A stretch of 27,620 nt of DNA from a virus, in the IMG/VR virus record IMGVR_UViG_3300027733_000174, positions 1 to 27,620 of that record; one strand, 5' to 3'. Below the pieces are notes generated by a model. It saw only the letters and a list, made by a program, of their open reading frames with translations, was not told the DNA's origin and ran no database searches. A program made the position numbers and the translations under genes. This document shows, one piece after another, positions 3,916 to 27,106 of this stretch; the stretch's first letter is position 1, and each line of letters begins with the position of its first letter.

Positions 3916-4743
3916 TTAGCTCTTAGCAATATCAGAGCTGTTAGGATCTATATCACTATTGATTGTTTTTCCTTCTATTTCAGTAGAAGTTTCTGTTCTT
4001 TTAAATTCATCTAAAAGTCTACCTGTATAACTGTATTCTCCATGATGGGATATGTATTCATCTACTAATGCATACATCTTAATACCTACATGTTTACATA
4101 GTTTACAGAAATAAAAATCTTCACCTGTATAAGTTTTATCGTCTTTATTCCAATAAGTATCAAAAAAGTTATACATATGATTTCTTTTAACTAATTTACC
4201 ATCAATTAAAGTATGTTGATTAATAGTAAATTCTGGATATTCTTTTATAAGTTTTTCAATTACTTCTTTCTTAATTAACATACATCCAGCGGGACCTCTT
4301 TCTACTTCTATAAAGCCATTTACAACTTTAACATTAGTAGGATCTGGAACAGACATTGTATATTGATTACCTAATAAATGTGGACTTAAAGTTTCCCCAG
4401 CTAATATTCTTGCTTTAACTTTATCATGATCTGTTCCTTTAATAGGATATGGGACAAGACAAATTTCTTTGTCATAATTAATCATCCTTTCAATCATTTT
4501 AAAATTAAAAGATATATCAGAATCTATAAATAACATATGTGTACAGTCCGATTCCATAAACCCCGATACACATAATTGTCTTCCTTGTGTTACTAAACTA
4601 CTTTTCATAACTTGAAACATTACAGCTATCTTTCTAACAAAACATTCCTTTTGAAATTCTAGACAAGCTTTAAAATAATGAATTGATACATCTGAATGAA
4701 CAGGTGTTGCTACAAATATACGATACGGTTGTTTATATCCCAT
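3916..4743 (-). CDS. GT-A type (family 2-like) glycosyltransferase
   Basis: A 275-aa protein with the hallmarks of a GT-A nucleotide-sugar transferase. An N-terminal strand (YRIFVATPVHS) is followed by a helical region, then a DSD metal/nucleotide-binding motif at residues 74-76 within HMLFIDSDI. An acceptor-side GED motif (207-209) lies in TYTGEDFYFC, and a His (about 234) is suitably placed downstream. It should transfer a sugar from a nucleotide-activated donor to an unknown acceptor. Its start overlaps the stop of the adjacent GT4 gene by 11 bases, so the two are probably co-translated and act in one pathway. Donor and acceptor cannot be read from sequence. Candidate acceptors are hydroxylated virion proteins, phage DNA or the host envelope, all speculative. 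Confidence 0.75.
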   Translation of the reverse strand: MGYKQPYRIFVATPVHSDVSIHYFKACLEFQKECFVRKIAVMFQVMKSSLVTQGRQLCVSGFMESDCTHMLFIDSDISFNFKMIERMINYDKEICLVPYPIKGTDHDKVKARILAGETLSPHLLGNQYTMSVPDPTNVKVVNGFIEVERGPAGCMLIKKEVIEKLIKEYPEFTINQHTLIDGKLVKRNHMYNFFDTYWNKDDKTYTGEDFYFCKLCKHVGIKMYALVDEYISHHGEYSYTGRLLDEFKRTETSTEIEGKTINSDIDPNSSDIAKS

Positions 4744-5647
4744 TTAAAAAATTCTCCCAATAAGTCTTTATTACATTCCAATGATAAAATTGTCTATAGT
4801 ACTGTTGTTGAAATTTCATTTTATTTTCATCTGGATTACTTAATATAGAAGGTAATTGATCTATAACTGAAGTAAATTGAGTAGCTAATAACTTTTTACT
4901 ATTTTGATGAGGAATGTATATTGGAAATTCAGCACATGTTTCGTATAAAGCACCGAGGTCCGTGGTCACTACAACAAGACCCGCTGCTAACGATTCCATA
5001 GCCGCTACACAAAAAGTTTCTTCAAATGTAGATGGATGAACATAAGCATCATAGGTATGAAGTATCTTCATTAATTCTTTATGATTTAAATATCCTTTAT
5101 AATTTACATTCTTCATTGATTTTGCTTTATCATATAGAGCAGTAAATTTATCATCATTATATTTTTTAAAATTATCTCCATAGATCTCAGTACTTGAATA
5201 AACATCTAATTCTATTTTATCTGTTTTAAGCTGTTCCATAGCATCTAGGAGCACGTCTAATCCTCTCCATGGTGTTGAGGTATATATTAACTTTATTTTA
5301 TCTTTAGGTTTAAAATCTGTTCTAATAATTAAATCATCATCAAATCCATTTTTAATAACAGAACATAACTCCGTTGGTATACTAAAAAAGTATCTATATT
5401 TTTCATAAGTCCAGTGAGAGTTAAATACATAGTAATCATATTTTCCATGATTTAATTTGTTTTGAAACCAAGGCATTAAGTTTGCTTGATCATAACTATT
5501 ATGTACCCAAAGTATATTAGGTTTATCAATTACTAATTTATCTTTTTCTGGAATAGAGGTTGTTATTTGAACTTTATTAAGAAGGTTTTTAGATACGTAC
5601 TTATTTAGATACTCTAATTGGATTTCAGTTCCGCCGTATGGATTCAT
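4733..5647 (-). CDS. Family 4-like glycosyltransferase (GT-B fold)
   Basis: A 304-aa protein matching group 1 (GT4-like) transferases. The C-terminal Rossmann domain starts near residue 117 (KIKLIYTSTPWRGLDVLLDA), has the family's HPSTFEETFCVAAMES segment with the E-x7-E pair at 210 and 218, and continues with LAAGLVVVTTDLGAL. The N-terminal domain is short, and NPYGGTEIQ at the very start resembles the donor-side Gly loop, so the protein is small for GT4 enzymes (usually 350-400 aa). It starts on a TAATG overlap with the upstream 73-aa gene and overlaps the downstream GT-A gene by 11 bases. The substrate is unknown; the enzyme class is well supported. Confidence 0.85.
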   Translation of the reverse strand: MNPYGGTEIQLEYLNKYVSKNLLNKVQITTSIPEKDKLVIDKPNILWVHNSYDQANLMPWFQNKLNHGKYDYYVFNSHWTYEKYRYFFSIPTELCSVIKNGFDDDLIIRTDFKPKDKIKLIYTSTPWRGLDVLLDAMEQLKTDKIELDVYSSTEIYGDNFKKYNDDKFTALYDKAKSMKNVNYKGYLNHKELMKILHTYDAYVHPSTFEETFCVAAMESLAAGLVVVTTDLGALYETCAEFPIYIPHQNSKKLLATQFTSVIDQLPSILSNPDENKMKFQQQYYRQFYHWNVIKTYWENFLNGI

Positions 5648-7937: not shown

Positions 7938-9893
7938 TTAACTTTGTGGTGTACTTCCTGCTCTTCCGTCTGGTTGTATATCTACTCTAAATATTCCGTA
8001 TCTCCAGTTATCGTCTATTGCGTCGTTTTCTATTTTAATACTTGCTAATCTTGCTCTAGCACGAGTATCTACCTTATCAGTAGATGTAGTAATAGTAAAT
8101 GGACCAATATAAGTTTCTCCTTTAGCAACCGTAGTATCAGCTGGATAGGATCTTAAATACAATGTTACATCAACTGTTCCTTCTAAATTTTTAAAGTCAG
8201 GTATAAATCTTCTAACTGACAAGAAGTATTCTCCATCTCCTTCCACATCTAAATCAAAGTCTCCTGATCTAACATAAGCAGATACTGCTAAACTAGTCGT
8301 ATTATTAGTTGTTAAATTTAACACTTCATTTTTACCTTTATCCTGTGCAAAATAATATGAAGCTCCTAAACTTACTCCATTAATTGTAGGAACTGTTGGA
8401 GTTGCTGCTGCATCATATTCAGTTGCATATGGAAACTTAAATACTTTAGAATCTTCCCAAGTAGTTCTAGCTAATGAACCTGTTGTCCAAACCATATCTG
8501 CATAATTAACAGTAGTTACTCTATCAATTTGAGTTGATCCAGCTTTAGGATAGAACCAACTTATTTCAGTAAACAGTGTATTTAATCCAGCATAAATAAT
8601 ATCTCCAGCTGAATAATTAATTCCTAAATTATCAGTACCTTTAGTAGTAAATACAAAATCTTCAACTAAAGAATCTACATCTTTAACTGTACCATCATAC
8701 ATATTAAATCCACCAGAATCCCCCATCCACCAAACAGCTCCGTTAACGAATGCTATAGCGTGCTGACCAATACATCCACAATTAGATCCTACTTTTCTAA
8801 TACTAAATGTATAAGGAGATCCAACAAATTGAATACTATACGCTGCAGTATCTGTTAAAACTAAAATATAATCTTTTGCTCTTACAGCACCAACAATAGT
8901 CGTACCATCATCTAATCTAAATGTACCTGCCGTATTTGTAGATGTTGGTTCATATACTTCAATATCTTCTTGATCTGAAAATCTTATAAACATTGGATCT
9001 TGAGTTGAAGGACTTCCAATAGTAGTCTCTGTTCCTAAATGTAATAAATGTCTATCTCTATCAGAAACTATTGTCAAAATAGAAGCTGTTGGATTATTTG
9101 GAACTAATGTAGCTCTAGTATTAACTCCAGTTCCAGCACTAGGATTCCATTTAAAAGTATTATTATTTTTTATAGTGGCTATTAAATCTTCACCAAAATT
9201 ATCTAATGACCAATTTCCTGCTGCTATATCTGTATTAGATATTGTTCTAGGAGTTCCCCACGTAGATAAACTCCATGTTCCAGCTCCCCAACCATATGCT
9301 AATGTTGTAGTAATAGGTCCAACAAGATAATAAGGTGTTAAACCTAATGTTCCTCCAGTAGTTACTCCAGTTCCAGTTTCTGAAGTTGCCATAGTAATAG
9401 TAAAAGTATTTAAATTAGGTACAGTAACAACTTCAAATGTATTTGTTGTAAAACTTGCTGATGTATATCCAGTTGTAGTAGGTCCTGGAGTCGTGGCACT
9501 TGTAAATTTAATTAACTCTCCAACTAATAACCCATGTGAGTTTTTATTAACTGTAACTGTTGCTGATCCCGTTATAGAAGTATATGTACAAGAAGCTAAC
9601 GCTCTTGTTGAATCAAGTGGCGTAATGTCATAAATATCATCACCATCATATACATAAAGACATTTATTAGTTCCAAGAGCTGCGTATCGTCTACCAGTTA
9701 AATCGGTCCACGACCATTGAGCTCTAACTGCTCCTACCATTAGTTTAGATGTAATCTGTTCCCAACCACCTATTTTTTCAGGAGATCCATAACGGAAACG
9801 TACATTATCCCCATCAATCCACTCTCCTTCTGCTTGTGAAGCGGTGGCTTGTTTATTAAATCCTGATTTTAATGCTATCTTTTTTAATGGCAT
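7938..9893 (-). CDS. Tail nozzle / tail-tube-B-like structural protein
   Basis: A 651-aa protein with repeated beta-rich blades: GKCLYVYDG-type turns, SATVTVNKNSHGL, YGWGAGTWSLSTWG, SDRDRHLLHLG, MFIRFSDQEDIEVYEPT, VLTDTAAYSIQFVG, AIAFVNGAVWWMGDSGGFNMYDG and ISWFYP. These strands, recurring about every 50-60 residues, fit a beta-propeller-like body as in podovirus nozzle and P22 gp10/T7 gp12-type proteins. The N-terminus (GFNKQATASQAEGEWIDGDNVRFRYGSPEKIGGW) is typical of this family in environmental phages. In the virion it would extend the adaptor ring and close the DNA channel. No Shine-Dalgarno precedes the ATG, while a perfect extended -10 element lies only 10 bases upstream. A 63-base offset, in-frame copy of the start region lies just ahead of it. 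Confidence 0.75.
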   Translation of the reverse strand: MPLKKIALKSGFNKQATASQAEGEWIDGDNVRFRYGSPEKIGGWEQITSKLMVGAVRAQWSWTDLTGRRYAALGTNKCLYVYDGDDIYDITPLDSTRALASCTYTSITGSATVTVNKNSHGLLVGELIKFTSATTPGPTTTGYTSASFTTNTFEVVTVPNLNTFTITMATSETGTGVTTGGTLGLTPYYLVGPITTTLAYGWGAGTWSLSTWGTPRTISNTDIAAGNWSLDNFGEDLIATIKNNNTFKWNPSAGTGVNTRATLVPNNPTASILTIVSDRDRHLLHLGTETTIGSPSTQDPMFIRFSDQEDIEVYEPTSTNTAGTFRLDDGTTIVGAVRAKDYILVLTDTAAYSIQFVGSPYTFSIRKVGSNCGCIGQHAIAFVNGAVWWMGDSGGFNMYDGTVKDVDSLVEDFVFTTKGTDNLGINYSAGDIIYAGLNTLFTEISWFYPKAGSTQIDRVTTVNYADMVWTTGSLARTTWEDSKVFKFPYATEYDAAATPTVPTINGVSLGASYYFAQDKGKNEVLNLTTNNTTSLAVSAYVRSGDFDLDVEGDGEYFLSVRRFIPDFKNLEGTVDVTLYLRSYPADTTVAKGETYIGPFTITTSTDKVDTRARARLASIKIENDAIDDNWRYGIFRVDIQPDGRAGSTPQS

Positions 9894-9999: not shown

Positions 10000-10632
10000 T
10001 TATTTGCTGTGGTTTAAAATTTGTTTAGGAAAAGCTTGTATATTAAAATGTATAAATCTAAAAGGTTCAATTCCATGATCTACTACAAATTCATGTTGTA
10101 GATATGAATTAAAAAAAACAAAAGCACCTGGTTTTGGTTTAAAATTAATTGAAGAAGAAGCTAGTGTAATTTGAGATTGATTTTTCTCAGGAAGTAGATT
10201 CATCATTCGTCCTGATCTTGGATCATGAAAAACAGGGTAAGAAGTTTTATCTGAACATTTTAAAAAATAAAAACCCGATATATGACCATTCCAATGAATA
10301 TGTGGAGAATGATTTCCACCTCCTAAACTTGGAAATTCTTGAACCCATAGTTCAGTAGTAGCTAAAGAATAATCTGTTAGATCAAATCCCTGGTTATTTA
10401 ATATATCAAAAGCATTACTATTTATGTAATTTAAAAATTCCTCAAAATTAATATCTTTAATTAAAGATTCTGAATGATGAACTGTTACAAAATCTTTTTC
10501 ATTTAATAATTTATTTTTTTCTTTTGCTTTTAATATGTGAATATTAGATGCTGCATTTAATTTTTCTACCCATTCTTTTTTTTCACTAAAGTAAATAGGT
10601 GTATTAAAAATATAATTTTCAGTTAAACTCAT
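10000..10632 (-). CDS. 2OG-Fe(II) oxygenase-like protein (TIGR02466-like)
   Basis: A 210-aa protein whose core ELWVQEF ... HIHWNGHISGFYFLKC matches the TIGR02466-type 2OG-Fe(II) oxygenase signature. Candidate metal ligands are H111 and H113 (an HxH pair where classical enzymes have HxD) and H180 in YLQHEF. R192 in FRFIHFN is positioned to bind the 2-oxoglutarate carboxylate. KPGAFVFFNSYLQHEF is the typical last strand pair of the jelly-roll. It would hydroxylate an unknown substrate using O2 and 2-oxoglutarate. It is the last gene of the overlapping oxygenase chain and shares an ATGA junction with the 72-aa gene. The fold call is firm; activity is uncertain because the metal site is non-canonical. 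Confidence 0.75.
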   Translation of the reverse strand: MSLTENYIFNTPIYFSEKKEWVEKLNAASNIHILKAKEKNKLLNEKDFVTVHHSESLIKDINFEEFLNYINSNAFDILNNQGFDLTDYSLATTELWVQEFPSLGGGNHSPHIHWNGHISGFYFLKCSDKTSYPVFHDPRSGRMMNLLPEKNQSQITLASSSINFKPKPGAFVFFNSYLQHEFVVDHGIEPFRFIHFNIQAFPKQILNHSK

Positions 10633-10847
10633 TCTCCATTAATTTTTGTTTCATTAAAAGTTAATTTATTTTGCACATCTTCATTAAATTTTAATTGCCA
10701 ATCCATAACCATTTTAACTAAATTATTACCAAAATGTTTTAAATTTTCATCAGATAAATGTATTTTTCCTTTTTTTAAAATAATCCATCTTTCTCTTATA
10801 GAAAATTCTATATCACAAGACCCGTTTTCATATTGTTTAAATTTCAT
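10629..10847 (-). CDS. Small protein inside the oxygenase chain, 72 aa
   Basis: A 72-aa protein with a two- to three-strand N-terminus (MKFKQYENGSCDIEF, then RERWIILKKGKIHL) and a helical C-terminus (NLKHFGNNLVKMVMDWQLKF). I recognise the pattern from small hypothetical proteins that accompany oxygenase genes in marine phages but cannot name a function. It overlaps the upstream oxygenase gene by 11 bases and the downstream one by four (ATGA), so it is translated with both. An accessory or partner role is a guess from this position. Confidence 0.55.
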   Translation of the reverse strand: MKFKQYENGSCDIEFSIRERWIILKKGKIHLSDENLKHFGNNLVKMVMDWQLKFNEDVQNKLTFNETKINGE

Positions 10848-11397
10848 TTTTATTAATCCATTTAATGTTAGAAAAATCAGACCATTTTTTTACTTCATTC
10901 ATATTAAATGCTATTGTAATTCTTTCTATTTCTTTTGTTATTTTTTTAACACTATGATTTAACATAGGATGAAATAAAATATATTTTCCTATTTCTTCTT
11001 CAATTAATAAATCATATTCTTTAAAATATGTTCCAGGTCCACCCTCAGTTAAATATAATATACCACAAAAAGCAGAAGTACTTGCATGATCATGTTCTGT
11101 AACTTCTTCTCCTATTTTGCATAAATTTCCCCATGCTTCTTGAATTAAAAAATCATTATTATATATAATTTTTATATTTGGTTGAATAATTTTTAAAAAA
11201 TTTAAAAAATCATTATTTTGCACTAAACTAAAAAAACCAGTAAAATGTCCTTTAACATTTGTTTTATAACTTAATTCGTTATCTTTATTATTTTTTACAA
11301 AATATGTTAAATTATCAATAATATCCTTATCCTTTATTTTACCTGTTAAAATAAAAGTTTCTTTTAATACTTCTTTAACTTGTAATTCAAAATTCAT
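10837..11397 (-). CDS. 2OG-Fe(II) oxygenase-like protein, HxH variant
   Basis: A 186-aa protein with a jelly-roll core: AWGNLCKIGEEVTEHDH, then SAFCGILYLTEGGPGTYF, IGKYILFHPMLNHSV and ERITIAFNMNEV. Candidate metal ligands are H102 and H104 and then H148; R159 sits where the 2-oxoglutarate-binding Arg is expected. The first motif is again HxH, not HxD. About 80 N-terminal residues have no recognised motif. The gene overlaps the upstream oxygenase by four bases (ATGA) and the 72-aa gene by 11. Substrate unknown; membership in the oxygenase superfamily is likely from the order and spacing of motifs, but weaker than for the 189-aa member. Confidence 0.65.
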   Translation of the reverse strand: MNFELQVKEVLKETFILTGKIKDKDIIDNLTYFVKNNKDNELSYKTNVKGHFTGFFSLVQNNDFLNFLKIIQPNIKIIYNNDFLIQEAWGNLCKIGEEVTEHDHASTSAFCGILYLTEGGPGTYFKEYDLLIEEEIGKYILFHPMLNHSVKKITKEIERITIAFNMNEVKKWSDFSNIKWINKNEI

Positions 11398-11837
11398 ATA
11401 AGAGCACCCACCATTATTTTTTTATTTAAAAAAGAAGGCATAGCATAATGAAATATTTTAGCATCAAAAAATACTATTTTTCCTTTTTCAGGATTAATTT
11501 TAATTTCTTTATTATCTAATTTAAATACAGTGTCTCCATCCGAATCATTTAAATATAATATAAAAGAATCGTTTTCTGTTTTTTCATGATTATGTTCTTT
11601 TTGAAAACCACCATTAAAATATTCAATAAAATGAATATGTTTTATTATTTTTAATAAGTTATAATTATTAATTATTTTTAATTTAATTTCTTCTGTAAAA
11701 AAACTAACAACATTGTCTGTTTGAAAACCATTAACTGTTGCAGTTTTATTTAATGCTTTTATGTTTTGTTTTTTTAAAAAATTAAATAAATCAATGCAAT
11801 ATGATAAAACCTCTGTTTGTATATTTTTTGTTATCAT
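11394..11837 (-). CDS. Short 2OG-Fe(II) oxygenase-like protein lacking the usual Arg
   Basis: A 147-aa protein, short for the family but with the full strand order: HFIEYFNGGFQKEHNHE, SFILYLNDSDGDTVF, IKINPEKGKIVFFDAKIFHYAMP and KKIMVGALI. Candidate ligands are H82 and H84 (E85 adjacent) and H130. The position of the usual 2-oxoglutarate-binding Arg is occupied by Lys (K139/K140). It may bind another co-substrate, use Lys, or be inactive. Both ends are ATGA overlaps with neighbouring oxygenase genes. The DNA is among the most AT-rich of the window, with many AAA, AAT and ATT codons. Confidence 0.6.
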   Translation of the reverse strand: MITKNIQTEVLSYCIDLFNFLKKQNIKALNKTATVNGFQTDNVVSFFTEEIKLKIINNYNLLKIIKHIHFIEYFNGGFQKEHNHEKTENDSFILYLNDSDGDTVFKLDNKEIKINPEKGKIVFFDAKIFHYAMPSFLNKKIMVGALI

Positions 11838-12379
11838 TTTGGTGTACCGTATAATATTCTTTTATCTTTTTTCCATTCTATATGTGGACCATTTGCATCT
11901 ACATAATGTAAAAATGTCTGTGCATGCCAATCTCCTTTAAATTCTTCTCTCCAATGTTCTATATCACATCCTAAATATACTGCAGCATCACCTGGCTTTA
12001 TATTAATTTCTGTACCATCCATATAAATTGGCCATGATGTTCCATCAGAACCTATCATTACTGTAACACTTACCTCACATGCAGGTCTATCTTTATGTTT
12101 TTTTAAATCTGCATTTATTGTATACATTCTCCAAAAAGCATAAGTTGGTATTAATTTTAATCCTGTTTCTTTTTGCATTAATTCTAATTTATTAACCATT
12201 AAAGACTCCATTAATGGATCTCCATAAAAAAAAGTATCCCCATTATTATTTTGGGTAAAATCAAAAGAATCAAAATTTATTCTATGTTTTATTCTACAAT
12301 AATCTGTTAATAATTTAATTTCTTCAGTCGTTAAGAAATTTTTAATTAATTTATATTTAAAATTTTTTATATTATTCAT
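11834..12379 (-). CDS. Prolyl-4-hydroxylase-like 2OG-Fe(II) oxygenase
   Basis: A 181-aa protein with AFWRMYTINADLKKHKDRPACEVSVTVMI, followed by WPIYMDGTEINIKPGDAAVYLGCDIEHWREEF. The HxD pair is H95/D97 and the distal ligand is H142. This is a pattern I know from phage-encoded prolyl-hydroxylase-like proteins. In the strand after H142 I see Gln (Q154, WHAQTFLHYV) where many relatives have Arg; R144 in HWREEF could substitute. It overlaps the upstream oxygenase by eight bases and the downstream one by four. It is one of three members of the chain with a canonical HxD motif and so a good candidate for activity. Confidence 0.75.
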   Translation of the reverse strand: MNNIKNFKYKLIKNFLTTEEIKLLTDYCRIKHRINFDSFDFTQNNNGDTFFYGDPLMESLMVNKLELMQKETGLKLIPTYAFWRMYTINADLKKHKDRPACEVSVTVMIGSDGTSWPIYMDGTEINIKPGDAAVYLGCDIEHWREEFKGDWHAQTFLHYVDANGPHIEWKKDKRILYGTPK

Positions 12380-12851
12380 GTACGCTTTCTGTTTTAAAAA
12401 CCAATGTAATTCTTGGTGTATTTTTTTCTAAAGGAGCTAATCCTCTATGTTTTAATTTTGCTGGGAAAGATATTAATCTATTTTGTATAAAACTAAAAGA
12501 TTTAATTTCATTATTTTTGTCTATTATTTGAAATTCTCCAGATTTTTCACTTAATGTTTTTGAAATCATAATTAAATAAGTGTTATCTCCATCATCTTCA
12601 TGAAACTCACCATTCATTCCCATATGTTGTACATTTATATATGACCTTAAAATTTTAATATTTTTTTTAAAAATTTTTTTACATAAAAAATTAATAACAG
12701 GTTCATTAAAATTAACATTTGTCATATAAAAATAATTATCATTATTATTTGAAGAATGACCATAATAATGTGGCATACTTAAAAAATACTCATTTAAAAA
12801 AATAATAAAATCTTTTTCTAAAAAATTATCTGTTATTTTTACAATGCCCAT
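12372..12851 (-). CDS. 2OG-Fe(II) oxygenase, HxD type
   Basis: A 159-aa protein with the jelly-roll core from about residue 68: SYINVQHMGMNGEFHEDDGDNTYLIMI, SGEFQII, then FIQNRLISFPAKLKHRGLAP and TPRITLVFKT. The complete triad H84-x-D86 ... H135 and the 2-oxoglutarate Arg R147 are present. GEFHEDDGDNTYL is typical of small phage oxygenases. It probably hydroxylates a protein or small-molecule substrate in the cytoplasm. It overlaps the upstream 189-aa oxygenase by 13 bases and the downstream one by eight. Superfamily assignment is good; the substrate is unknown. Confidence 0.75.
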   Translation of the reverse strand: MGIVKITDNFLEKDFIIFLNEYFLSMPHYYGHSSNNNDNYFYMTNVNFNEPVINFLCKKIFKKNIKILRSYINVQHMGMNGEFHEDDGDNTYLIMISKTLSEKSGEFQIIDKNNEIKSFSFIQNRLISFPAKLKHRGLAPLEKNTPRITLVFKTESVHE

Positions 12852-13408
12852 GCAACAACTGAATACCTTTTTCCTTTCGTTACTGGTTTTACTGTATGTG
12901 GATATAAAAAATTACTTGGCCAAATTATCATCCTATTTGGTTTAACTTCCACTTCCCATTCTCCAGATCCATCTGGGTTTCTAAAGCATAAATTGCCACC
13001 TTCGTAATCATTATTTAATAACAATATGCAGCTCATTGTTCTTGGAATTTCTGCAAAATGATCTACATGCCAAGTATAGAAACCTGTATTTTCGTATTTT
13101 AAAATTTCTATATCAAAAATATTTTTATAACCATAATCTAAAATATTTGCATCAAGTCTATATTGTTTTAAATTTTTATTAAAATAAAACTGAAGTAAAT
13201 TAAACCAATGAACATTTGAAATAGAGTTATTTAAATTAGATAATGGTAAAGTGTAGGTTCTTCTAATATTAAAATCTTTTTTACTTTCAGATTCACTACC
13301 TATTAAAGCATCATTAAAATTAGAAGAATTAGCAAAACGTATTAAATTAGAGAGAACTGCCCAGGGAAGCACCTCATCATATATCTTAATAAAATTTTTT
13401 ATTTCCAT
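12839..13408 (-). CDS. Prolyl-4-hydroxylase-like 2OG-Fe(II) oxygenase
   Basis: The most canonical of the six oxygenases: 189 aa with IEILKYENTGFYTWHVDHF (H114-x-D116), RTMSCILLLNNDYEGGNLCF, a VKPNRMIIWPSNFLYPHTVKPV strand (H171) and KGKRYSVVAWAL with the 2-oxoglutarate-binding R181. This is the P4Hc pattern seen in phage and bacterial prolyl/lysyl-hydroxylase-like proteins. It is the first oxygenase translated in the chain, overlapping the DUF6065-like gene by 10 bases and the next oxygenase by 13. It should catalyse Fe(II)- and 2-oxoglutarate-dependent hydroxylation. The substrate cannot be deduced; nearby tail proteins are candidates. Confidence 0.85.
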   Translation of the reverse strand: MEIKNFIKIYDEVLPWAVLSNLIRFANSSNFNDALIGSESESKKDFNIRRTYTLPLSNLNNSISNVHWFNLLQFYFNKNLKQYRLDANILDYGYKNIFDIEILKYENTGFYTWHVDHFAEIPRTMSCILLLNNDYEGGNLCFRNPDGSGEWEVEVKPNRMIIWPSNFLYPHTVKPVTKGKRYSVVAWAL

Positions 13409-14154
13409 GATTTTTTATTCCAATATTTATCTTTATATACATTTAATATACATAAACTATAAAACAACTTTGTACGTTGCATTTCTTTTTGTTTTTTTGA
13501 TTTAGTTTTCATTTTCCAAGAATCTCTCTTAAAAGGTATTATTTGAACATATGGGGTTCCTTTTTTTATAGTTGTTTCTAAAACAGGATACTTATCTCCA
13601 TTTATAACAATTGGAAAATTTATTTCTATGGGATGATTATCTGTATCAACTATTCCAGGTATAATTGAAAATCGATCGTCCGTATTATTTAATGGGGGCA
13701 CAAATAAACATGAATATCCTTTCGGTGTTTTAATTTTCCAAGGATTTACTATTTTATAAAAAGGAAAATTTTTATTTTTTTCAATAAGAGAGGATCCTTC
13801 TAATTGTTTTATTGGATGAATATCAATTCCAGAATTTAAATTTATTTTTTTTGCATTTAATAATTGATTTTCACCATGTAATCCAAAAGTTTGAAAAGAA
13901 TCTTTAAATATTTCTCCTTTTTCATTTTTATTATCTACATTATGTCTAACATGAAAATCTTGTGGCATTTTTAATAAATAACCAGCAGTCAAAGAATCTA
14001 AAAAAGGCATACAACCTTTTGCAGTTTTATTCAAAACTGTATGTTCTAATTTTTTATACCATTCAGGTATATTTAATTTTGCAGGAATTGGATAATCTTC
14101 CTTAAGTGCAAAATAATCTTCATGTGCACTAAACTCTATTTCTTTATCAAACAT
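13399..14154 (-). CDS. DUF6065-like protein
   Basis: A 251-aa protein that I recognise as resembling DUF6065. The signature is IPAKLNIPEWYKKL near residues 22-36, then GCMPFLDSLTAGYLL, NPWKIKTPKGYSCLFVPPLN, a GIVDTDNHPIEINFP segment and a KGTPYVQIIPFKRDSWKM end, followed by a basic tail. The family function is unknown. The invariant Pro, Trp and Asp-Thr-Asp residues could form a ligand- or sugar-binding face, which is inference only. It heads the overlapping chain that runs to 10000, overlapping the first oxygenase by 10 bases, so it probably works in the same process. Confidence 0.65.
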   Translation of the reverse strand: MFDKEIEFSAHEDYFALKEDYPIPAKLNIPEWYKKLEHTVLNKTAKGCMPFLDSLTAGYLLKMPQDFHVRHNVDNKNEKGEIFKDSFQTFGLHGENQLLNAKKINLNSGIDIHPIKQLEGSSLIEKNKNFPFYKIVNPWKIKTPKGYSCLFVPPLNNTDDRFSIIPGIVDTDNHPIEINFPIVINGDKYPVLETTIKKGTPYVQIIPFKRDSWKMKTKSKKQKEMQRTKLFYSLCILNVYKDKYWNKKSWK

Positions 14155-14173: not shown

Positions 14174-14623
14174 TTATGGTAGTTGTAAAGGATTTAATGA
14201 AGTTTGTCCCAAATCATTAAAATATTGTTCTAAAGATTTATTTAAAGGAAAAACAAATTGATTTTCTGTTAATGTGTTTAATTGAATATAATAACTATTC
14301 CATCTACTGTAGAGTGGATGATTTATATTATTATCTAAAAAACCTTTAATTTGATTTTTTACTATTGAGATATAATTATTTAAATCTGTCCAATTTAAAA
14401 AACTAATTGGTTTACTGTTGATGTATGTAATAGTATTTTCATTATATTTAATACAATCTTTTGTTCCATATTTTACAGCGTTAAAATTATCTTGACTATC
14501 TTCTATAACTTTATAAAGCGATTGTGAAATATTTAAATTATTTAAATCAGATAAATTTTCTGCAATACGATATAATGTACCTTCCGCATTATTTAAATTT
14601 TGATTAAAAATAAAATAGCTCAT
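14174..14623 (-). CDS. Conserved fibre-adjacent protein, 149 aa
   Basis: A 149-aa Asn-rich protein opening MSYFIFNQNLNNAEGTLYRIAENLSDLNNLN, with a WTDLNNYISIVKNQIKGFLD helix and a C-terminal NPLYSRW-like turn (HPLYSRWNSYYIQL). It sits two bases downstream of the tail-fibre gene, as similar proteins do in related marine phages. It is therefore likely a fibre-associated structural protein or fibre chaperone. No known domain is visible and the function is not established. Confidence 0.55.
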   Translation of the reverse strand: MSYFIFNQNLNNAEGTLYRIAENLSDLNNLNISQSLYKVIEDSQDNFNAVKYGTKDCIKYNENTITYINSKPISFLNWTDLNNYISIVKNQIKGFLDNNINHPLYSRWNSYYIQLNTLTENQFVFPLNKSLEQYFNDLGQTSLNPLQLP

Positions 14624-14625
14624 TT

Positions 14626-15891
14626 TTATGTCCCTGTATTTTCAAATACAACTAAAACACCAGGCTGACCACTGTAAACCATAGGTCCCCCACCACCAGC
14701 TCCACCTGCTCCAAAATTACCACTTGTTGTAAAATTTCTACCTGCATTTGGATAAGTAAGAGCAGCACCAGGTGCATTACCACTTGCTCCAGATCCAGAA
14801 GGGCCTACAGCAGGACCACCTGAACCAGCATTTACTGTACCTACATTTGTAAAATTTGTTATTCCACCAGCATTACCAGCTGCTCCCTGAGCATTTGGTG
14901 CATTTCCTGCAAGCCCTACAGAATACGGTTGAGAAAAAGGTTGTGTTATTGGTTTGTTATAAAAACCAAAACCACCAATACCACCTGGACCACCTGTAGG
15001 ACCACCACATTGGTTATTTTGTCCACCTCCTCCACCTCCAGCAATCATAAAAACTCCAAGTCTATTTGCAGTAGGTGTAGCTGTATAAGTTCCACTTGCT
15101 GGTCCTACAGAATATAATGTAGGTATACCCATTCCAGCACCTGCTGATCCAGAAGATGCGGAAGTAATTCTACCATCAGCAGCTACTGTAATTGTTGCTG
15201 CTGTGTAAGTTGCTGCTGTGACACCTGTTGCTATTAATTGAGTTGTTCCTACAGCAGCTGATGCAATCTTAACTGATGTAACTGATGCTGTATCTAATGC
15301 TCCAGATGTAATTGCAAAAGAAGCTACTTTAACTGAAGTTACAGATGAAGTATCTAATTTTGCAGATGTAACTGCAAATGATGCAATCTTAACTGATGTA
15401 ACTGCTGATGTATCTAATTCATTAGGACCAATAACAAAATCTCCGATAGAGGCACTTGTACTAATTACTCCACCTAATGTGCTAAGATCAATTGTATTTG
15501 CATTTGTTCCATCTAAATAAACACCTTTAATATTTTTTTCAGTTGCTCCCCAAATAACAGAAGCTCCAGCAACTTGGTTTAATGCTAATGTAAATGCACC
15601 TGTTGTACTATTTTTAATTGTATATGTTTTTTCAATTCCACTTGCTACATAAACGGTTGAGTTAGCTGCAATCGTTCCTGTAAATTCTATAACAGCATTT
15701 CTAGCTGTTGATATTGTAGCATCTGTCATCGCTAAAGTTGTATTAGTAGATGTAAGTGCTATTGCTTGATAACCAACAACTGCTTGTTGTAATAAATTTA
15801 AATTTGTATTTGTCTTATCGCCCCAGGTTCCAGAGTTTTCCCCTGTTACCATCAGCTCAAGTTTTAAATCTGTAGAATAACTAGATGCCAT
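14626..15891 (-). CDS. Tail fibre with 20-aa repeats and glycine-rich tip
   Basis: A 421-aa protein. Residues 1-150 (STDLKLELMVTGENSGTWGDKTNTNLNLL ... NIKGVYLDGTNANTIDL) are a common N-terminal module of marine-phage tail fibres, which probably attaches to the tail. Residues 159-218 are three 20-aa repeats of the form LDTSxVTSVKIASFAVTSxx, likely a triple-stranded shaft. From about 285 to 410 the protein is Gly-rich with poly-Gly blocks (GGGGGG; GGPTGGPGGIGGFG; AGGAGGGG), like adhesin tips that bind receptors. A Shine-Dalgarno (AAGGA) precedes the ATG by about five bases. Host binding is the expected role. Gly-Pro pairs in the tip are possible substrates for the adjacent prolyl-hydroxylase-like enzymes, which is speculative. 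Confidence 0.8.
   Translation of the reverse strand: MASSYSTDLKLELMVTGENSGTWGDKTNTNLNLLQQAVVGYQAIALTSTNTTLAMTDATISTARNAVIEFTGTIAANSTVYVASGIEKTYTIKNSTTGAFTLALNQVAGASVIWGATEKNIKGVYLDGTNANTIDLSTLGGVISTSASIGDFVIGPNELDTSAVTSVKIASFAVTSAKLDTSSVTSVKVASFAITSGALDTASVTSVKIASAAVGTTQLIATGVTAATYTAATITVAADGRITSASSGSAGAGMGIPTLYSVGPASGTYTATPTANRLGVFMIAGGGGGGQNNQCGGPTGGPGGIGGFGFYNKPITQPFSQPYSVGLAGNAPNAQGAAGNAGGITNFTNVGTVNAGSGGPAVGPSGSGASGNAPGAALTYPNAGRNFTTSGNFGAGGAGGGGPMVYSGQPGVLVVFENTGT
15238..15417 (-). repeat. Three 60-base tandem repeats in the tail fibre gene
   Basis: Codons 159-218 of the fibre form three consecutive 60-base units encoding LDTSAVTSVKIASFAVTSAK, LDTSSVTSVKVASFAITSGA and LDTASVTSVKIASAAVGTTQ. 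Unit 3 is most diverged at its end. The DNA copies share long identical blocks, such as the complement of GCAATCTTAACTGATGTAAC in units 1 and 3, so shaft length could vary by recombination. Confidence 0.85.
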
Positions 15892-19822: not shown

Positions 19823-20281
19823 TTAAACCATTGGTGAATATACAATTTTACCACTTACCTTCTGTGCCTTCAAGTACTGCTTTCTATTACTTTCTTTTGA
19901 ATAACTACAGTGAACCCATCCACTATTAGGCTCATTTTCATTCCAAAACTCAAGTATACATTGATCATATTCAAAGTTCTGTACAATAAAATCTGCAACA
20001 TCTTTATTGGCTACTCCAAATATTTCAAAGTCTGCGGCTTGTCCTTTAGTATGCTGGCTTTTGGCTGAAGATCCTACAGCTTCACAAAGTGCAACTGATC
20101 TATAACCAGAAGATATAGATACAGGCATTCCATAATAATCTCTTAGTGGTTGTAGTATTTTTTCACAAAGTATTTTAAGATTTTGTATTTGATCTTCATT
20201 TGGAGTATTAGCTATTCCAAGTCTTGTTGCTTCTTGAGACTTTGTTAATTCATTTAATGTAAAACTTTTACTTAATTCCAT
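19823..20281 (-). CDS. M15-type peptidoglycan peptidase (D-Ala-D-Ala carboxypeptidase-like)
   Basis: A 152-aa protein with the peptidase M15_3 layout: PVSISSGYRSVALCEAVG (about 53-70), the zinc motif SQHTKGQAADFE (H77 and D84), a central acidic region (YDQCILEF, E111 a possible catalytic residue) and GWVHCSY with the third ligand H124. It should cleave peptide cross-links or stem peptides of peptidoglycan, either as endolysin or as virion-associated lysin. No signal peptide is present. The ATG lies one base after the stop of the 20-codon membrane micro-ORF with no Shine-Dalgarno of its own, so translation is probably by re-initiation from that micro-ORF. Confidence 0.85.
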   Translation of the reverse strand: MELSKSFTLNELTKSQEATRLGIANTPNEDQIQNLKILCEKILQPLRDYYGMPVSISSGYRSVALCEAVGSSAKSQHTKGQAADFEIFGVANKDVADFIVQNFEYDQCILEFWNENEPNSGWVHCSYSKESNRKQYLKAQKVSGKIVYSPMV

Positions 20282-20282
20282 T

Positions 20283-20345
20283 TTAATAAAAATATGTATA
20301 GTATGTCCAAACAGCTATATTAAAAAGTAGTATTGCTTCTATCAT
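20283..20345 (-). CDS. 20-aa membrane micro-ORF between the two lysis enzymes
   Basis: ATG 20345 overlaps the glucosaminidase stop (ATGA) and TAA 20285-20283 lies one base before the M15 peptidase ATG. A strong Shine-Dalgarno (AAGGA) sits eight bases upstream. The product MIEAILLFNIAVWTYYTYFY is almost wholly hydrophobic and could span a membrane once. It may be a holin-like peptide, or it may exist to bring ribosomes to the peptidase start. Short size makes it uncertain, but signals at both ends agree. Confidence 0.55.
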   Translation of the reverse strand: MIEAILLFNIAVWTYYTYFY

Positions 20346-20944
20346 TTATTATTCCTTAATCTATTTATAACCTCAATAACATGTTTTTCATATTCTTTAT
20401 TTGTAGAAAAACTATCCAATGCTTTTGCCATTCTTATAGGATCTCTATTAAATGACATATCTCTGGCTTTTCTAAATTCTGCATATACTTGTTTTGTATT
20501 TAGAATTTCAATGTAATATCTAACAGATTCACATTTGTTTTTAAATACCCTTACTCGCCATTCTATATGATCTGGTTGTTTATAAGGTAACATTCCCTCT
20601 TTAGACCAGACTCTTATGCCAAACAAGTTATTCCCTTCAATTGCAAATCTAGATGTTCCATAATTAGATTCAACAATAGCTTGGGCTACTATAAGTTCTG
20701 TATTTATATGTTTATTTGTAGGGATGTCAAAATTGAGGTAGGAGATACACTTTTTAAGAGAGGTGATGAATTCTTCATTGTTATGATATTCAAACCTTGG
20801 TGGACCAAACCCTAGGCTCTTAGCCCAGGCGATTGTGGCGTTCTCAGTTTTCTTCTTGGCGACGGGATTTGGGAAAAATGTACCTAATACAAACGCTAGA
20901 AGAGCTACTATCAAATATTTTACTATTATACTCTTTATTGTCAT
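20342..20944 (-). CDS. Membrane-anchored glucosaminidase-like lysin (GH73/Bax-like)
   Basis: A 200-aa protein from ATG 20944; a TTG 11 codons earlier has no ribosome-binding site and is less likely. Residues 5-23 form a hydrophobic signal-anchor (IIVKYLIVALLAFVLGTFF). The enzyme domain has LIVAQAIVESNYGTSRFAIEGNNLFGIRVW with the probable catalytic Glu at 92, then YYIEILNTKQVYAEFR, typical of Bax/flagellar FlgJ-type beta-N-acetylglucosaminidases that cut the glycan strand. The N-terminal anchor suggests periplasmic action after Sec export, like a signal-anchor endolysin. It is followed by the micro-ORF and the M15 peptidase, giving two complementary wall hydrolases. Confidence 0.8.
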   Translation of the reverse strand: MTIKSIIVKYLIVALLAFVLGTFFPNPVAKKKTENATIAWAKSLGFGPPRFEYHNNEEFITSLKKCISYLNFDIPTNKHINTELIVAQAIVESNYGTSRFAIEGNNLFGIRVWSKEGMLPYKQPDHIEWRVRVFKNKCESVRYYIEILNTKQVYAEFRKARDMSFNRDPIRMAKALDSFSTNKEYEKHVIEVINRLRNNK

Positions 20945-20997
20945 AACATTTACATTGATTTGAGAGACAGCATCCAACTGTCAGGTTGTTAATACAA

Positions 20998-21563: not shown

Positions 21564-22226
21564 TTATTTGTTCTCCTCTTTTATTATATCATAAAAAAAA
21601 TTGTCTGTGTCATCTGTAATTAATCCTTTATTTTCAACATTCCAAATTGTAGTTTGGACTTTATAATCAGGTACAGATGGTTTAGTAGTAAAGCTAGGGA
21701 TACTCCACAGAATACGATTATTAGGCATAATTGCATAATTACCGTTATCAAGAGCCAACACATGCCCACACTTATGTTGATCAGGAATTTCGGAATGTTC
21801 AGTATCAATAATATTACTTTCTGGATGTGCCCAATCAATCGTAAATAAATATTCACCATGATAAAGTTTATTTTTATTTTTACTAAAATATTTACAGCGT
21901 TGACCTTTTAAAAAATCAAAAACAGTAACACTAGGATAATAACTGAATGAATTCCATAGCTGAAGATCTTCGAGATCTTGATGTTCCATCTGTGTGCTAT
22001 GCACATCACTGCCGACTCTTCTTTGAACAAAAGCAGAGATAGGAAGTCTCCAATATATTGCACCGTTGCTAAGTAAACAGTGAAACAACGTTGCACGCCC
22101 GCTAATACTCCCCAGGCCAAATACCACGCAGTCTTCAGTTTCTCCTTGATGCTCTCGTAAGTCATATAAATATTCCTTTCTTATTTTACAATAAATTGTA
22201 GGTATGTTAGCATTTAGATAAGACAT
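21564..22226 (-). CDS. Conserved uncharacterised phage protein, 220 aa
   Basis: A 220-aa globular-looking protein with strands and aromatic residues: IYCKIRKEYLYDLREHQGE, CVVFGLGSISGRATLFHCLLSNGAIYWRLPISAFV, LQLWNSFSYYPSVTVFDFL and HGEYLFTIDWAHP, plus ALDNGNYAIMPNNRILW. I recall similar proteins in other marine phages without known function. GC content looks higher than that of its neighbours, and no Shine-Dalgarno precedes the ATG. It ends one base before the membrane/coiled-coil gene. Structural or regulatory roles cannot be told apart. Confidence 0.5.
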   Translation of the reverse strand: MSYLNANIPTIYCKIRKEYLYDLREHQGETEDCVVFGLGSISGRATLFHCLLSNGAIYWRLPISAFVQRRVGSDVHSTQMEHQDLEDLQLWNSFSYYPSVTVFDFLKGQRCKYFSKNKNKLYHGEYLFTIDWAHPESNIIDTEHSEIPDQHKCGHVLALDNGNYAIMPNNRILWSIPSFTTKPSVPDYKVQTTIWNVENKGLITDDTDNFFYDIIKEENK

Positions 22227-26647: not shown

Positions 26648-27106
26648 TTAGTACATGTGCAAAATATCGGAAGGGTTATCTATCTTAGCAATGATTTCAT
26701 CATCGTTAAGAAGTCTAACTTCACCACCTTCTATTTTGAATCTGCTACCTGCATATCTTCCAAAAATAACCCAATCACCTTCTTTACACCAAGGTCCTAA
26801 TGGAAATTTTTCTTTGTCTCTGTAACAAAGATTTCCCATTTTAAGAACATAGGCACAAACAGTTGTCATTTGAATTGTATCTTTAGAATTGTCAGATAGA
26901 ATAATTCCACCTTTAGTTTGAGCTGGCCCAGCATATGGTAGAACCAAAATTCTCCAGCCTGTTGGCTGAGGCATTCTATCTAAAGTAGATTTATCTATTG
27001 AGTTTGGGTTGAGCACTTTCTCAACCACTTCTTTTTCTTGGTAAACGTCTTTTAAACCTTCATGTATAGAAGGAATATCAGTTGTTACTGTCGTCGTCAT
27101 CTTCAC
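26648..27106 (-). CDS. GroES-like co-chaperonin
   Basis: A 152-aa protein with a Cpn10 core after residue 45: TGWRILVLPYAGPAQTKGGIILSDN (first strand plus the region of the GroEL-binding mobile loop), VLKMGNLCYRDKEKFP, WCKEGDWVIFGRYAGSRFKIEGGEVRLLNDDEIIAKID. It would cap the host GroEL chamber and assist folding of phage proteins, as T4 gp31 does for its capsid protein. The start is GTG at 27106, or ATG two codons later (27100); GGGAG lies four or ten bases upstream respectively. It overlaps the 69-aa gene by 29 bases. About 40 extra N-terminal residues precede the Cpn10 fold. No GroEL gene is present. Confidence 0.8.
   Translation of the reverse strand: MKMTTTVTTDIPSIHEGLKDVYQEKEVVEKVLNPNSIDKSTLDRMPQPTGWRILVLPYAGPAQTKGGIILSDNSKDTIQMTTVCAYVLKMGNLCYRDKEKFPLGPWCKEGDWVIFGRYAGSRFKIEGGEVRLLNDDEIIAKIDNPSDILHMY

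Follow-up and report, generated by a model that had tools for sequence, protein, structure and literature searches.

Why would a marine phage keep six different oxygenase-like genes in one overlapping chain among its tail genes? The question is raised by positions 10000-14154 of IMG/VR record IMGVR_UViG_3300027733_000174, a 27.6-kb virus fragment identical with the window, by which we mean the whole stretch of 27,620 nucleotides that was analysed. Judged by its sequence, the window probably comes from a marine phage with relatives among the viruses of Pelagibacter, an abundant ocean bacterium; the protein encoded at 7938-9893 matches gp72 of HTVC023P (E 4e-223), and tree marker genes such as PolA are absent from the fragment. 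We found that two of the six oxygenases belong to a fixed four-gene core and that the other four are accessory genes occupying defined slots. A fixed core with swapped accessories suggests a conserved machine for the chemical decoration of a protein or surface.

The eight genes of the chain, all on the minus strand, are named from g8 (13399-14154) down to g1 (10000-10632). Successive genes from g8 to g1 overlap by 10, 13, 8, 4, 4, 11 and 4 bases, which confirms to the base the chain described in an initial annotation of this DNA. Each of the eight open reading frames starts with ATG and is free of internal stops, and the chain is bounded by a 19-base gap between g8 and the preceding gene and by a 106-base gap after g1. 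The six oxygenase-like proteins share pairwise identities of 15-31%, too low for the recent duplicates that the initial annotation had also doubted, and recent tandem duplication is thereby ruled out as their origin.

Family and fold matches support the presence of six distinct oxygenase-like genes in this coupled unit. The 2-oxoglutarate (2OG)-Fe(II) oxygenase g7 (12839-13408) scores 67 bits against PF13640, above the curated cut-off of 27 (E 2e-18), and two further 2OG-Fe(II) oxygenases, g1 and g3 (10837-11397), exceed the cut-off of 27 for PF13759 with 55 and 32 bits, respectively (E 1e-14 and 2e-7); g1 is TIGR02466-like and g3 matches PHROG 81 (E 5e-18). The match of g4 (11394-11837) to PF13640 is sub-threshold (24.3 bits vs a cut-off of 27, E 6e-5) and is joined by matches to PHROG 274 (6e-11) and PHROG 61 (2e-9). 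No Pfam family was matched by g6 (12372-12851), which is called oxygenase-like on the basis of PHROG 274 (E 7e-22) and a weak match to an FlmC-type 2OG model (E 2.5e-4). When profiles were compared with PDB sequences, g7 matched prolyl 3-hydroxylase 1 (2e-6) and EGLN1, g1 matched 3bvc (6e-8) and 2rg4, and g6 and g8 had no meaningful matches. The iron-binding motif reads HxD...H in g5, g6 and g7, with invariant H114, D116, H171 and R181 in g7 and H84, D86, H135 and R147 in g6, and HxH...H in g1, g3 and g4 (HxH at residues 82-84 of g4). Several oxygenase-like cassette proteins fall in PHROG 274, 2297 and 1644, whose labels 'DNA endonuclease V', 'DNA endonuclease' and 'minor coat protein' look like propagated misannotations.

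The remaining oxygenase-like protein, g5 (11834-12379), matches no Pfam family and only PHROG 2954 and 3531, both labelled 'ferrochelatase'. The double-stranded beta-helix that the initial annotation expected of these proteins was nevertheless predicted for g5 at high confidence: the AlphaFold2 model has a mean predicted local distance difference test (pLDDT) score of 95.3 and a predicted template modelling (pTM) score of 0.90, and H95, D97 and H142 are invariant in a 57-sequence alignment. In a Foldseek search of the PDB, the best match of the model was Pseudomonas putida prolyl-4-hydroxylase (4j25, 4iw3), with Dictyostelium PHD and human PHD2 also matched (E 9e-9 to 1e-6, query TM-score ~0.67, identity 16-18%). 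None of the 57 family members matches the Pfam ferrochelatase models, and this result, together with a fold whose best matches are 2OG oxygenases, rules out a ferrochelatase. The PHROG 2954 family is thus confidently predicted to be oxygenase-like, with a prolyl-hydroxylase-type double-stranded beta-helix fold. A 'ferrochelatase' corresponding to PHROG 2954 has been described as co-occurring with 2OG oxygenases in pelagiphages (PMC11561400, following PMC9599517); given the predicted fold of g5, this published partner would itself be oxygenase-like, and the reassignment does away with a 'ferrochelatase' that recent ecological studies have regarded as an oxygenase partner in its own right.

Which of these genes belong together was established from relatives. 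Searching IMG/VR with g8 returned 80 loci (76-87% identical), and core counts were made on the 71 that span g8 to the downstream structural gene, several of which are near-duplicates. The DUF6065-like gene g8 (251 amino acids; PHROG 7084, E 2e-46), g7 and g5 are present in all 71 spans, and g2 (10629-10847), which encodes a conserved 72-amino-acid protein, in 70; in this order they are core genes 1, 2, 3 and 4. The DUF6065-like and 72-amino-acid proteins, which the initial annotation had proposed as possible partners, are therefore conserved neighbours of the oxygenases. Median ratios of non-synonymous to synonymous substitution rates (dN/dS) are 0.10-0.17 for g8, g7 and g5, 0.27 for g2 and 0.37-0.45 for g1 and g3. 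The presence of g8, g7 and g5 in 71/71 spans and their low dN/dS indicate that the cassette is more than a chance assemblage.

Between these core genes lie three slots: A between g7 and g5, B between g5 and g2, and C between g2 and the structural gene. The window's four accessory oxygenases are g6 in slot A, g4 and g3 in slot B and g1 in slot C. Cassettes hold 2 to 6 oxygenase genes, the window's six being a maximum common to three others, and approximately 52 distinct arrangements were counted in 72 cassettes. In L063, L068, L083 and L086 the gene caller, which accepts only ATG starts, overlooked g5, so that each of these four counts should be raised by one. Accessory genes nonetheless keep to their places: 148 of 163 were found in their own slot, compared with a mean of 87 and a maximum of 100 in 2000 shuffles, with g3 homologues in slot B in 38/38 cases and g1 homologues in slot C in 26/26. 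Random placement is ruled out by this fidelity, though content varies. The conserved assortment anticipated in the initial annotation thus holds for g7 and g5, which are fixed, and for the slot-specificity of the accessory families, but not for the other four oxygenases, which are accessory. A linear pathway requiring all six oxygenases is unlikely, since relatives carry 2 to 6 of them in many arrangements.

Oxygenase-like proteins make up 26 of the 36 sequence clusters, 22 by PHROG or Pfam and four (29, 30, 33 and 34) by inspection only; g4 is a singleton cluster among the 72 cassettes. The other clusters comprise two that are cupin-like, a carbamoyltransferase, a carbamoyltransferase-like, a DXD glycosyltransferase, a QueC-like, a CmcI-type methyltransferase, a sulfotransferase, an APS-kinase-like and a cytidylyltransferase-like cluster. 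Non-oxygenase genes (carbamoyltransferase, glycosyltransferase, QueC-like and others) occur in 32/72 cassettes. QueC-like genes are found in 8 cassettes, each after a g3-type gene; this ATP-pyrophosphatase lies directly behind the oxygenase at L053:6363-7019 and at seven other slot B loci, and a two-gene pathway is possible. A slot C gene at L045:2679-3566 encodes a single protein in which a DUF6817 (HD-like) domain and a 2OG oxygenase domain are joined.

The arrangement extends beyond close relatives. A g5 profile search recovered 73 more divergent loci, among which homologues of g8 and of g2 are each present in thirty; the usual order in those bearing the core is tail-fibre-like gene, g9, g8, g7, g5, g2 and structural gene, and in more distant loci two or three oxygenases adjoin the structural gene without g8. 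Relatives of g5 occur in 156 annotated phage records, chiefly of cyanophages and pelagiphages. Mosig EXVC030M has six consecutive genes annotated as 2OG, 'ferrochelatase' or 'DNA endonuclease V' between its tail-fibre and neck genes, and syn9 has several such oxygenase-type genes in one region.

Oxygenase stacks are therefore already known. Multiple 2OG genes in marine phages have been published (PMC3037559, PMC9602691, PMC9599517): cyanophage S-SCSM1 is reported to carry 24 (PMC9602691), and HTVC023P-type pelagiphages eight that are non-orthologous (PMC9599517). With the Mosig and syn9 stacks, these reports make the initial view that more than a single oxygenase is unusual too strong. The gene groups of the HTVC023P type (HTVC023P, HTVC033P and 023Pt_psg01; PMC9599517) share with the window homologous g5 and g1 and a g7-like gene near tail-structural genes, but no g8 or g2 match was found in them, and in that account the relatives of g5 are taken for ferrochelatase, an invariant core with slots being no part of it. 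Mosig EXVC030M, syn9 and S-SCSM1, which are T4-like, likewise have several distinct oxygenase genes in a row, among them genes of the PHROG 2954 and 274 types; they are, however, myoviruses, and a search of annotated phages with g8 gave no match in Mosig or syn9. In the text searched, oxygenases are not mentioned for the S-SCSM1 virion proteome. What is new here is the four-gene core, the slot structure, the DUF6065-like partner and the PHROG 2954 reassignment, for none of which a prior description was found in the open-licence literature that we searched.

The two core proteins that are not oxygenases are harder to place. The match of g8 itself to PF19541 (DUF6065) is weak (E 0.025, 14.5 bits vs a cut-off of 26.6), and 10 of 30 aligned members of its family match this model at E <= 0.01 (best 8.6e-9). 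Structure prediction for g8 gave a pLDDT of 38 from an alignment low in diversity. Haloarchaeal tailed viruses have g8 relatives that are ~30% identical; that of HSTV-2 adjoins thymidylate synthase and that of HF2 lies close to ribonucleotide reductase (L167:8902-9771 and L168:6911-7795), and no annotated oxygenases were found near either. In cellular genomes, the DUF6065 search gave one distant match, on a Dehalococcoidia metagenome-assembled genome contig, which the Pfam model failed to confirm in that genome. The searched literature contained no mention of DUF6065, and g2 had no match among annotated phages.

We tentatively propose, at clearly less than an even chance, that the locus is a modular hydroxylation and decoration cassette in the tail-gene region of HTVC023P-like marine phages, with a virion tail protein as the favoured candidate substrate. 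That a protein or surface is hydroxylated and decorated is suggested by the siting of the cassette among tail genes, by the kinship of g7 and g5 with prolyl hydroxylases and by hydroxyl-using transferases in 32 of 72 cassettes; a protein substrate is favoured because the relatives of g5 (prolyl hydroxylases) and g7 (prolyl 3-hydroxylase and EGLN1) act on proteins. As their overlapping starts and stops suggest, translation of the cassette genes would be coupled and would take place along with that of late tail genes. It is hypothesized that g7 and g5 hydroxylate side chains, with proline as a first guess, of a co-produced protein that is most likely a tail component, and that g8 and g2 may serve as substrate-recognition or scaffold partners. 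Accessory oxygenases would contribute additional hydroxylations, and in cassettes with transferases the resulting hydroxyl groups could then receive carbamoyl, glycosyl or methyl groups, so that exchange of accessory genes may diversify virion-surface chemistry. Retention of the core in ~30 divergent loci with the same flanks supports this proposal, as do the low dN/dS of the core, the position of the Mosig stack between tail-fibre and neck genes and the glycosyltransferase gene (4733-5647) in the gene block of the cassette. Glycosylation of mycobacteriophage virions has been proposed (PMC11256854) and is cited by analogy only, as a case of phage tailoring enzymes proposed to modify virion proteins; those enzymes are glycosyltransferases rather than oxygenases. 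It is less likely, and we regard it as doubtful, that the DUF6065-like protein, the two core oxygenases and the 72-amino-acid protein form a conserved complex devoted to hydroxylating virion proteins, to which accessory oxygenases and transferases are added interchangeably.

Several observations weigh against the decoration of a tail protein. Cassette content did not correlate significantly with tail-fibre alleles (Mantel r 0.01) or with structural-protein alleles (0.04), although the tail-fibre and structural-protein genes co-vary given the core (r 0.65). We read this null as counting against allele-specific tailoring of fibres, not against virion-protein modification in general. Weak correlations of cassette content with g9 divergence (r 0.16, p 0.008 given the core) and with g2 (r 0.20, p 0.0015) are leads only, about a dozen tests having been made and g2 being physically close to the slots. 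Fe(II)/2OG catalysis is putative for all six window oxygenases: HxH replaces HxD in three of them, and in g5 Gln154 lies approximately at the position of the usual distal 2OG-binding Arg. This Gln and an identity of 16-18% set g5 apart from P. putida prolyl-4-hydroxylase and PHD2/EGLN1, with which it shares its fold and g7 its profile kinship. The small-molecule enzyme SnoN is also among the fold matches of g5, and fold kinship does not fix the substrate.

SnoN also bears on a second explanation, that the target is a surface glycan of host or phage, or a small molecule, on which the oxygenases would create or alter functional groups for carbamoyl-, glycosyl-, methyl- and sulfotransferases to decorate, so as to change the envelope or block superinfection. 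The slots hold carbamoyltransferase, DXD glycosyltransferase, CmcI/rhamnosyl-type methyltransferase, sulfotransferase and APS-kinase-like genes, two slot clusters resemble sugar or antibiotic tailoring families, and the window has a glycosyltransferase of its own (4733-5647). With g7 and g5 closest to protein prolyl hydroxylases and a transferase absent from 40/72 cassettes, we consider this explanation somewhat unlikely. The same kinship could instead serve hydroxylation of a host protein, such as a translation factor, by the core during takeover, as P. putida prolyl-4-hydroxylase, the best fold match of g5, has also been solved with EF-Tu. This EF-Tu-linked match is, however, at fold level (16-18% identity), and the cassette sits with virion genes and not with early genes, which makes a host target distinctly unlikely.

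Modification of nucleic acids, in which oxygenases would hydroxylate bases that are then carbamoylated or otherwise extended, has a precedent in the known 5-hydroxymethylcytosine carbamoyltransferase (PMC8670742), where likewise the hydroxyl comes first and the carbamoyl after. Some slots hold carbamoyltransferases, 8 cassettes hold QueC-like genes, HTVC023P-type phages have DNA hypermodification genes (PMC9599517), and the DUF6065-like gene of HSTV-2 has thymidylate synthase as its neighbour. The published route nonetheless differs in its nucleic-acid substrate and in an enzyme that the window lacks; searches of Pfam and NCBIfam linked no nucleic-acid oxygenase family to any of the window's six oxygenases, the location is the tail module, and the carbamoyltransferase and QueC-like genes are optional. 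We judge this improbable. To the same degree improbable is a role as metabolic auxiliary genes, of the kind put forward for cyanophages (PMC3037559), by which the host's 2-oxoglutarate, nitrogen or iron metabolism would be altered, in keeping with the iron-uptake induction discussed with an HTVC027P oxygenase gene (PMC12753301): the 'ferrochelatase' partner from which the haem and iron idea came is oxygenase-like, and consumption of 2OG alone needs neither a fixed four-gene core nor many slot-specific families. That the locus is mainly a recombination hot spot, with accessory oxygenases as interchangeable moron genes of unrelated function and no joint role, accords with the many arrangements and 2 to 6 oxygenase genes per cassette but is very improbable in view of the invariant core and order, strong slot fidelity and purifying selection.

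The flanks of the cassette are also encoded on the minus strand. Upstream of the core lie the variable 149-amino-acid gene g9 (14174-14623), present in 69/71 loci, and a tail-fibre-like protein with a Gly-rich C-terminus (14626-15891; weak PHROG tail-fibre matches); downstream lies the virion structural protein (7938-9893; PHROG 3287, E 2e-83), a putative 'nozzle' according to the initial annotation. The glycosyltransferase gene at 4733-5647 (group 1) is on the same strand and in the same gene block as the cassette and is overlapped by a PHROG 1574 gene at 3916-4743 that is glycosyltransferase-like by eye; their products could supply sugars for decoration. Elsewhere, the window encodes a GroES-like co-chaperonin (26648-27106; Cpn10 PF00166, E 1e-10) and, in neighbouring genes, two different cell-wall enzymes, a peptidase M15 and a glucosaminidase (19823-20281 and 20342-20977). 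A 220-amino-acid protein (21564-22226) matches PHROG 3704 'ferredoxin' (E 4e-73) and no Pfam family, and this label may be erroneous.

For the 2OG-oxygenase genes that are common in marine phages, we found no tested substrate in the literature searched. The fixed core reduces the question to four proteins and marks the other oxygenases as optional; the proteins encoded in the same operon form a short list of candidate substrates. If a dedicated hydroxylation complex were indeed at work, the tails of closely related phages would differ in their chemistry, and phage particles would bear a combinatorial code of post-translational modifications.

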